DNA of 40,359 bases from Akkermansiaceae bacterium. Its GTDB lineage: Bacteria > Verrucomicrobiota > Verrucomicrobiia > Verrucomicrobiales > Akkermansiaceae. The notes under the pieces were generated by a model, which worked only from the letters and a program-made list of their open reading frames with translations, was not told the origin of the DNA and searched no databases. The DNA is taken from contig JAJQCV010000017.1 in NCBI GenBank assembly GCA_021202525.1, positions 1 through 40,359 of the forward strand. Direction: 5' to 3'. The position numbers and the translations under genes were made by a program. Numbering within the stretch: the first letter of the stretch is position 1; every line of letters starts with the position of its first letter. Below are positions 13,491 through 24,291 of this stretch, one piece after another.

Positions 13491-14339
13491 ATGAATGATC
13501 TTCAGCAGTACTTTGAAGACCGGAAGCAATTCGTAGAATTGCTGGAAGCGGTCGGCATCAGTACGCTGAAGGAATTCTCCGCGGTTGATCCCTTCACCGT
13601 TTTGCCTGAACTCCATCAGGCAAAACGGATATTGAAACTGGAGACGGAAATACCCACGGCGCCCGTGTTCAGGGAATGGGTGGCCCAGGCCCTCACTGCA
13701 TCCAGGGCGGCAAGCCCGGACAGCATTACCCAGGCTGCGGGCTCCATCCTGCCTCTCGCCACTCCTGTGAATACTACGGAGAAAACGGGAAAAACACCTA
13801 AAGTGCTTCCCCCGGAGAGAAAATCCGCACTCCCCACCAGGAAATCTGCGGCCTCCAAATCACAGTCCCGGGAAGAATACAACTACCGCCCCGCCAAACC
13901 GGCCTCCGTGCAGAAACAGCCCAAGACCTACCTGCGGAAAAAAGGCATCAAGCACCTGACTCCCTTTCGGACTTGGATCGGAGCCATAGCCGTTCTTCTC
14001 TTCTTCGCCAGCAGTATCTCCGCCATTGTTCTGACAACCATGATGCTGCTTAACGGAGAACGGGGCTGGCAAATCATCTGCCTCTGCTTCGGCCCCTGGA
14101 TACTGGCCCTGATTCTTTACCTTGCCGTGGCCCTCCCCCGGAAAAGCCTCGGATGCCGGGCACCCCTCTTCTCCTTTAAAAAATACAACCGCAACAAGGC
14201 GGCCCACCACATTCCGCTGTTCGGTTATGTATTCGCCACAGCGCTGCATATATTCCTCTTCAACTGGTTCCGCTGTCCGGCCTGCGGCTCGGCCCAGCAG
14301 TTGGGCGGAAAATCCCCCGCGGAGACCGGCAGGCATTAA
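13491..14339 (+). CDS. Membrane protein of unknown function downstream of valS
   Basis: This 282-residue protein has no recognised family. Residues 1-70 are helical, with a helix-hairpin-helix-like phrase (LLEAVGISTLKEFSAVDP). A Ser/Thr/Lys/Pro-rich linker runs from about 75 to 150. Three membrane segments follow near 162-188, 193-215 and 243-262. The C-terminus carries a CPAC pair that could be half of a metal site. It lies 18 bases after valS on the same strand, so co-transcription is likely, but a functional link to tRNA charging is not implied. The cytoplasmic helical part could bind a protein or nucleic acid. Confidence 0.7.
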   Translation: MNDLQQYFEDRKQFVELLEAVGISTLKEFSAVDPFTVLPELHQAKRILKLETEIPTAPVFREWVAQALTASRAASPDSITQAAGSILPLATPVNTTEKTGKTPKVLPPERKSALPTRKSAASKSQSREEYNYRPAKPASVQKQPKTYLRKKGIKHLTPFRTWIGAIAVLLFFASSISAIVLTTMMLLNGERGWQIICLCFGPWILALILYLAVALPRKSLGCRAPLFSFKKYNRNKAAHHIPLFGYVFATALHIFLFNWFRCPACGSAQQLGGKSPAETGRH

Positions 14340-14574: not shown

Positions 14575-14607
14575 ATAAAAAAGCCGCCTTCCAAAAAGGA
14601 AGGCGGC
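14575..14607 (-). terminator. Strong terminator closing the ribosomal protein cluster
   Basis: GCCGCCTTCC (14583-14592) and GGAAGGCGGC (14598-14607) form a perfect ten-pair stem with a five-base loop. On the minus strand it is followed by TTTTTTAT. It lies 25 bases after the rplN stop and marks the end of the S10 transcript. Confidence 0.92.
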
Positions 14608-14632
14608 GTTTCAACATCCTGGCGTGTCTCGA

Positions 14633-14998
14633 TTAGAGCACTTCCGGAGCAAGGGAAACAATCTTCATGAACTTCTTTTCACGGAGTTCACGGGCGACCG
14701 GCCCGAAAATACGGGTGCCGCGCGGGTTGTTGTCCTTGTCAATAATCACTACGGCGTTGCCGTCGAAACGAAGCACGGAGCCGTCGTCACGGCGAATCGG
14801 GGCGGCGGTGCGCACCACAACAGCCTTCACCACGGTACCCTTCTTCACGGAAGCGGTAGGAATGGATTCACGGATGTGGCAGGTAATAATGTCGCCGATG
14901 TGGGCCTGACGCGTGCGCTTGCCGATAACGCCAATCATCTTGGCGGAGCGGGCGCCGGTATTGTCGGCCACCTGAACTAGGGATTCCATCTGGATCAT
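14633..14998 (-). CDS. rplN: 50S ribosomal protein L14
   Basis: This 121-residue protein is full length and typical: [17 protein letters not shown] at the start, [10 protein letters not shown], and the C-terminal [15 protein letters not shown] segment. L14 binds 23S rRNA near the subunit interface and the GTPase-factor region. It is the last gene of the cluster. In most bacteria rplX (L24), rplE (L5) and the rest of the spc operon follow directly; here a strong terminator and unrelated genes do. Confidence 0.98.
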
Positions 14999-16776: not shown

Positions 16777-17115
16777 TTAGCCTTCTTGATCGGCCAGTAC
16801 AACGGTGATGTGGGATGTGCGCTTGCGGATCATGTTGGCGGATCCGCGGGCGCGGGGCATGGTACGGCGCATGGTGGGGCCTTCATCAACCATGACGGAC
16901 TTGACGACGAGCGTATCGACGGACAATTCCGCATTGTTTTCAGCGTTGGCCACGGCGGACTTGAGCGTCTTATTCAGCAGATAGGCACCCTTCTTGGGGG
17001 TGTAGGACAGGATGTCGGTCGCCTGGGAGACGGACAAGCCTTGGATTTCTTGAGCAATATCGCGCATCTTCTTTGCAGAGATGCGGGCGTATTTGTAAAC
17101 AGCTTTCACTTCCAT
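16777..17115 (-). CDS. rplV: 50S ribosomal protein L22
   Basis: This 112-residue protein lines the exit tunnel with L4. It begins MEVKAVYKYARISAKKMRD and contains the long beta-hairpin with MRRTMPRARGSANMIRKR. The frame extends upstream to 17238, but the ATG at 17115 is preceded by CGAGGAAAAA and matches the family start. Its upstream neighbour is unusual: instead of rpsS, a 711-base unrelated gene ends 38 bases before it. Confidence 0.97.
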   Translation of the reverse strand: MEVKAVYKYARISAKKMRDIAQEIQGLSVSQATDILSYTPKKGAYLLNKTLKSAVANAENNAELSVDTLVVKSVMVDEGPTMRRTMPRARGSANMIRKRTSHITVVLADQEG

Positions 17116-17153: not shown

Positions 17154-17864
17154 TTAATCGTTGGTTTTTACTGAGGCAGAATCTCCGACGCGCACCGGAT
17201 CGGCCGGCGCCATGAGCTTCTGAACAAGCGCGCCACACACATCCTTGCGAACGTCCGTGACCACGGCTTCTCCGATGGTTTGTGCTCCACGGGTCAGCAG
17301 CAATGGCATCCCGATTTGCATCCCGGCGGATTTTCCGACGTTGACCACCACCACTCCGGACTCGGAGTCGATGCTGAGCACCTTGGCTTCCGCCTGGGTT
17401 CCCGCGCCATCTCGCACGGGCTGTTGCCTGTATCCGAGCACGGAATCCAGCAGACGCAGGGAGCTTTCCACTGCCGTTCTGGCGTCCGCATCCTCGGATA
17501 TGGCCTGTTTCATGTAGGCGAGGATAGCTCCGGAGAGCTTGACTGACGCCTGTTCCAGCCGCTGAATGCGGTCGCTGAGAACTTCGATGTTAGCCATCGC
17601 CTGGATCAGGCGCTCCTCACTGTTACCTAGCGCTGCGCCTCCCAAAGCCTCCAGCCGGGAACGGATGTCCAGAAGCTGGGCATTCGCGTTATCGGCATCA
17701 ATGCGGGCCTGGGCGTAGGACGCCTTGAGGGCCGCATTCTGCTTTTCGAGGTGCTCGATTCTGCGCGTCAGTGCCGCCGTACCCTCTTCCGCTCCCTGCA
17801 TGGTTCCGCCCAGACCGACAATGGCCGTGAGGGAATAGGCAAGGATGGAAGAAGAGTTCGACAT
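17154..17864 (-). CDS. Unknown coiled-coil protein inserted between rpsS and rplV
   Basis: I recognise no named family for this 236-residue protein. The start has a short hydrophobic stretch (residues 7-23, ILAYSLTAIVGLGG) that could be a weak anchor or signal. Two long helical stretches follow (about 28-75 and 82-145), the first with heptad-like LTRRIEHLEKQNAALK, so a coiled coil is likely. Residues 158-233 look like a small beta-barrel (VLSIDSESGVVVVNVGKSAG, IGEAVVTDVRKD, VRVGDSASV), resembling beta-domains appended to coiled coils in PVC envelope proteins and in MreC-like proteins. It lies 20 bases after rpsS and 38 before rplV on the same strand, so it must share the ribosomal transcript. 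Confidence 0.85.
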   Translation of the reverse strand: MSNSSSILAYSLTAIVGLGGTMQGAEEGTAALTRRIEHLEKQNAALKASYAQARIDADNANAQLLDIRSRLEALGGAALGNSEERLIQAMANIEVLSDRIQRLEQASVKLSGAILAYMKQAISEDADARTAVESSLRLLDSVLGYRQQPVRDGAGTQAEAKVLSIDSESGVVVVNVGKSAGMQIGMPLLLTRGAQTIGEAVVTDVRKDVCGALVQKLMAPADPVRVGDSASVKTND

Positions 17865-17884: not shown

Positions 17885-18154
17885 TTACTTCTTACCGATA
17901 CCGCCGTGCTGTTTGAAGACACGAGTCGGGGCAAATTCACCAAGCTTGTGGCCTACCATGTTTTCCGTGACGTACACGGTGGCAAAATTCTTGCCGGCGT
18001 GCACCAGGAAGGTCAGGCCTACGAAGTCAGGCGTAATCATGGATGCACGGCTCCAGGTCTTGATAGGCTTGCGATCGCCGGATTCAAGCTGAGCGTCGAT
18101 CTTGGCGAGAAGCTTTTGACTGACAAAAGGGCCTTTTTTGAGAGAACGTCCCAT
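17885..18154 (-). CDS. rpsS: 30S ribosomal protein S19
   Basis: This 89-residue protein of the 30S head begins [11 protein letters not shown] and contains [16 protein letters not shown] and the [11 protein letters not shown] segment with the family tail. It contacts S13 and the subunit bridge region. It follows rplB normally but is followed by the coiled-coil gene rather than rplV. Confidence 0.98.
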
Positions 18155-24263: not shown

Positions 24264-24291
24264 AATATAACGTGATTTCACACCATGACAA
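24264..24291 (-). promoter_or_regulatory. Probable sigma70-type promoter of the str-S10 cluster
   Basis: Read on the minus strand, TTGTCA (24286-24291) and TATATT (24264-24269) are separated by 16 bases; each matches the consensus in five of six positions. Transcription would start near 24257, leaving a leader of about 140 bases before rpsL. Confidence 0.65.

Follow-up and report, generated by a model that had tools for sequence, protein, structure and literature searches.

A predicted exported coiled-coil and beta-barrel protein encoded between the genes for S19 and L22 in the S10 operon of Verrucomicrobiota

Introduction

A familiar case of an envelope-related gene that is co-transcribed with ribosomal protein genes is secY of the spc operon, whose product is a universal subunit of the translocon. 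Among envelope proteins, TsaP is a LysM protein accompanying the type IV pilus secretin (PDB 3jc8), and MreC (PF04085) combines an exported or anchored coiled coil with a following beta barrel. FlgT is a periplasmic protein of the flagellar H-ring (PDB 3w1e, 8z5n), and Vibrio needs it for the H-ring and for external flagella (PMC7990780). As a lineage marker of a whole superphylum, the PVC signature protein CT421.2 has been described (PMC3444138).

The gene dealt with here encodes a protein of 236 amino acids and is located between rpsS (S19) and rplV (L22) of an Akkermansiaceae bacterium. Like secY, it would be an envelope-related gene associated with ribosomal protein genes; it is, however, phylum-specific, belongs to the S10 part and encodes a product of the exported type. 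With TsaP the protein shares the C-terminal domain, as seen by profile comparison, and the exported envelope type, whereas a coiled coil takes the place of the LysM wall-binding domain and the gene belongs to the S10 operon. With FlgT it has in common the fold of the C-terminal barrel and a predicted periplasmic location. The layout is also reminiscent of MreC, but there is one barrel, which stays below the MreC cut-off, and most carriers possess a true MreC in addition. The likeness to CT421.2 is that of a lineage-marker protein; going by the description in that paper, CT421.2 is a different protein, and S19 and L22 are unmentioned there. Among open-licence papers, none was found on a gene insertion between rpsS and rplV, and the architecture, the phylum-wide spread and the S10 location of the gene appear not to have been described before; the domain type is already known.

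The Gene and Its Close Relatives

The window, that is, the whole stretch of 40,359 nucleotides that was analysed, contains on its minus strand the order rpsL-rpsG-fusA-rpsJ-rplC-rplD-rplW-rplB-rpsS-[gene]-rplV-rpsC-rplP-rpmC-rpsQ-rplN. The gene (P0001 in the list of open reading frames) occupies 17154..17864 on this strand and comprises 236 codons, with ATG as start and TAA as stop codon. Upstream, at a distance of 20 nt, lies rpsS (17885..18154, minus strand); downstream, 38 nt away, follows rplV (16777..17115, minus strand), starting with the ATG at 17115. An initial annotation had placed a gene of exactly this extent and spacing there, on the same strand as the ribosomal genes and unrelated to them, all of which was borne out; the strand, unstated there, is the minus strand. 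After rplN, the usual next genes of the spc operon, from rplX onward, are absent (14583-14998). Downstream of valS, a 282-codon reading frame on the plus strand (13491-14339) encodes a protein that has hydrophobic stretches and matches DUF4332 barely above cut-off. A search for RNA families within the window found none.

Homologues are located between rpsS and rplV in 26 genomes of the same genus (44-100% identity) and in the same place in 22 genomes from five other families of the order (26-37% identity), and the order rpsS-gene-rplV is found in every same-genus and same-order genome in which the locus is assembled. In 11 same-genus genomes there is no strong match to the gene; since rpsS and rplV are missing there too, these absences represent assembly gaps. 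The closest among the named records, an Akkermansia muciniphila isolate (locus L126), has 92% DNA identity over 6.4 kb, with 88% identity for the gene product and 95-100% for the neighbours, and the window thus very probably derives from a species of Akkermansia. Over nine pairs, dN/dS of the gene amounts to 0.05-0.27, so that purifying selection is clear. The initial annotation had named absence from close relatives as the mark of a recent insertion and lack of purifying selection as a sign that the frame may not be a gene; neither was found, and by these comparisons the gene is real, old and conserved.

Export Signal and Domain Structure

The first 25 residues (17790..17864, minus strand) resemble an export signal with a short hydrophobic core, which in the window's species group is not preceded by lysine or arginine. 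Across 111 relatives adjoining rplV, a hydrophobic start of this kind is present in 93%, compared with 0-5% for S19, L22 and S3; lysine or arginine precedes the core in 95 of the 111, an AxA-like cleavage site is found in 106, and a few have a lipobox-like motif. These calls were made by hydropathy and motif count, with no dedicated predictor, and by this simple count the short hydrophobic N-terminal core and the cleavage-site-like motif of a Sec-exported protein are both there. The relatives that fail the count look for the most part like cases of wrong start codons. After removal of 25 residues, the pI is 5.2 for the protein of the window and 5.1 as the median of the relatives, while S19 and L22 have values of 10.2 and 10.5. 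Together, the sequences are a strong indication that the protein would be exported, although the missing lysine or arginine in the n-region of the window's own protein counts against it.

The signal is followed by coiled-coil helices (residues 27-143; 17436..17786, minus strand), supported by the structure model and by alignments and varying in length, and by a six-stranded barrel of the FlgT_C/TsaP-C type (residues 155-236; 17157..17402, minus strand). In the model, long helices extend over residues 27-74, 82-119 and 126-143, and the beta domain covers residues 160-232; the hydrophobic N-terminus, long coiled coil and C-terminal beta-domain of the initial annotation are thus reproduced. Modelled alone, the C-terminal domain reaches a pLDDT of 93.9 and a pTM of 0.83. 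Its best fold match is the C-terminal domain of FlgT (3w1e, 8z5n; Z 11.0, rmsd 1.9 over 75 residues), followed by many N-terminal barrels of F1-ATPases with Z of about 10; a Foldseek search with the domain alone returned FlgT as first and second match and MreC (6zlv) further down. As this barrel also occurs in F1-ATPases and MreC, the modelled fold alone does not pick its function.

Sequence comparison was productive at the level of the domain. With the full-length protein, Pfam and NCBIfam gave weak coiled-coil matches only, searching the PDB with its sequence alone gave nothing useful, and a profile of the full alignment retrieved generic coiled coils only, so that a domain-only profile was needed. 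Built from 56 sequences, this profile matched TsaP residues 316-402 at E 9.6e-8 and MreC at E 0.48. Matches to PF16538 (FlgT_C) were weak and below cut-off in 13 of the 56 domain members (best E 0.0022), and the 236-residue protein itself had none. From profile and model, the barrel is most likely related to the C-terminal domain of TsaP and FlgT. As a whole, the protein belongs to neither family, because a Pfam scan revealed no LysM match up to E 10 and none of the other FlgT domains. The presence of the gene does not track that of secretins, the one exception being family f8, which lacks both the secretins and the gene. On another contig of the same genome (G000, C90), two adjacent genes (L049:852-1703 and L049:1749-2564) encode proteins of 283 and 271 amino acids, both of which have a hydrophobic segment at the N-terminus, a coiled coil and no Pfam match; the barrel is found by profile in the 271-residue protein, and the 283-residue protein looks alike by eye.

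The layout raises the question of an elongasome scaffold in the manner of MreC, where an exported coiled coil with a barrel would organise cell-wall synthesis and perhaps replace MreC in the window's genus. MreC is among the fold matches (6zlv), four of the 56 domains match the MreC barrel weakly, and PF04085 is absent from all 39 genomes of the genus, with no match over cut-off in the window's own genome. Yet the protein has one barrel only, FlgT and TsaP match it better, and MreC is present in 77 of the 79 other sampled Verrucomicrobiota. Since nearly all other carriers have MreC, the protein is no general substitute for it, and across the sampled genomes the presence of the gene does not track MreC; we consider such a role improbable.

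Transcription and Translation

On the minus strand between 14300 and 24500, the sole promoter-like site lies upstream of rpsL (24264..24291), and strong terminator-like hairpins were found by the scan only before rpsL and after rplN (14583..14607); none of either kind is located beside the gene. This points to a single transcription unit with the ribosomal genes, as the initial annotation had assumed, a single transcript being inferred only, because the promoter and terminator calls are consensus matches. The codon index relative to ribosomal protein usage is 0.39 for the gene versus 0.55-0.77 for the ribosomal proteins and fusA of the window; it is below the ribosomal protein mean in 109 of 114 loci and lower than every ribosomal protein tested in 78 of them. 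In the window's species group the gene has no Shine-Dalgarno sequence, while rplV has GAGGA; this comparison is informative only within the window's genus, as phylum-wide, where most genes are without one, Shine-Dalgarno strength does not set the gene apart from its neighbours. Judging from these features, it would probably be co-transcribed with the ribosomal proteins and yet be made at a lower level. The earlier statement that it is made with ribosomal proteins accordingly stands for the message and, given the probable lower translation, not for the amount of protein.

These data also bear on the proposal, likewise made in the initial annotation, of a ribosome-associated or ribosome-assembly factor. 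A ribosomal or ribosome-bound protein was taken to be cytosolic, free of an export signal and basic; what was found is an export-signal-like N-terminus in 93% of the relatives and a pI of 5.2 for the protein of the window. The location between S19 and L22 is the only point in favour of such a factor; against it are the export signals, a pI of about 5 compared with about 10.3 for the two neighbours, the low codon adaptation and a barrel of the envelope-protein type. With an acidic protein of poor codon adaptation, a role on the ribosome is unlikely, and we regard the chance as very small.

Distribution and History

Of 241 genomes sampled throughout the phylum, 120 were matched by a profile built from the proteins of the order; in nearly all of the loci fetched for the weaker matches, the match lies directly upstream of rplV, and in total the gene takes this position in 33 sampled family codes of Verrucomicrobiota. 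In distant classes, conservation is limited to the C-terminal domain, and some of the relatives there, of 105-140 amino acids, consist of the export signal and this domain only, the coiled coil being missing. Eighty genomes without a match to the first profile were re-examined, with S19, L22 and the domain located independently. In 20, the domain adjoins rplV after all, and 17 of them have an S10 operon broken immediately before the gene, with the gene remaining beside rplV; in 40 (13 families), the distance from rpsS to rplV is 17-161 bp and the gene is absent, a count that is not a phylum rate, the 80 having been picked for lacking the first match; in a further 18, the gene is relocated or the locus unresolved. 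Because at least 13 families lack it, the gene is not universally required. The split operons, with rpsS elsewhere in the genome, were seen in G063, G066, G137, G187, G195 and others, from families f18, f28, f34 and f44. In a genome of 0.9 Mb (G113, locus L243), S19 and L22 are separated by 325 bp without a clear reading frame, which may be a decayed gene copy in a reduced genome.

As a control, 80 named loci were fetched by S19 alone, which also supplied the outgroups. In 66 loci of other phyla (Bacteroidota, Gammaproteobacteria, Omnitrophota, Gemmatimonadota, Nitrospirota and others), the distance between S19 and L22 is 17-155 bp and the gene is absent, and 11 of the 13 Verrucomicrobiota loci in the set carry it (394-877 bp between S19 and L22), the exceptions being L165 and L190. 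Distances of the domain correlate with those of S19, L22 and S3 (Spearman coefficient 0.75, 87 loci; the highest value among 500 permutations was 0.19). The simplest history suggested by these patterns is one early insertion followed by vertical inheritance and several losses. That the gene is a recent insertion or a spurious reading frame is contradicted by the phylum-wide synteny, the dN/dS values and this correlation, and has a negligible probability.

The same distribution is pertinent to a further explanation, namely a frozen accident, where an envelope gene would have landed in the ancestral S10 operon and stayed because breakage of the operon is costly, its co-expression being functionless. 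The clean loss in at least 13 families, the relatives found away from rplV beside unrelated genes in some members of family f18 and the low codon adaptation are in line with it. Maintenance at the same spot in 33 families and with rplV in the 17 genomes with a split operon speaks against it, but does not decide, because inertia predicts the same. We hold this explanation to be possible, if clearly short of probable.

Proposed Role

By a slight balance, we favour the reading that the protein is a Sec-exported scaffold of the periplasm or outer membrane, whose gene became part of the S10 operon early in the history of Verrucomicrobiota and is transcribed along with the ribosomal protein genes, yet translated at a lower level. 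Its signal peptide would direct Sec export into the envelope, where the periplasmic coiled coil would probably oligomerise or span distance, and the C-terminal barrel is of the type by which TsaP and FlgT connect rings in the periplasm with the cell wall or outer membrane. The protein would thereby act as an envelope scaffold or anchor, a role that we infer. Once the gene had joined the operon, it would have been inherited with it; co-transcription would let the supply of the protein follow growth, and the weak initiation region and codon usage would hold its yield below that of the neighbours. Of the functions suggested in the initial annotation, an envelope or growth-linked structural protein is the best reading. 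A frozen accident is nearly as good an account as the scaffold, and sequence cannot separate the two.

A coupling of ribosome and envelope production is possible. The strongest form of the scaffold reading, in which a dedicated envelope scaffold is wired into the S10 operon of Verrucomicrobiota, so that a signal for ribosome synthesis would directly govern an envelope component, a coupling absent from the other sampled phyla, is on the doubtful side. If true, envelope growth would be inherently tied to the production of ribosomes. The S10 operon is among the most conserved gene orders of bacteria, and a gene for a probably exported protein that lies in its middle phylum-wide would serve as a marker for Verrucomicrobiota. 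For Verrucomicrobium spinosum, a transposon essentiality map has been published (PMC12283558). As an uncharacterised, probable envelope protein in a genetically tractable species, the 236-residue protein would offer a route into the matching of envelope growth and ribosome production.
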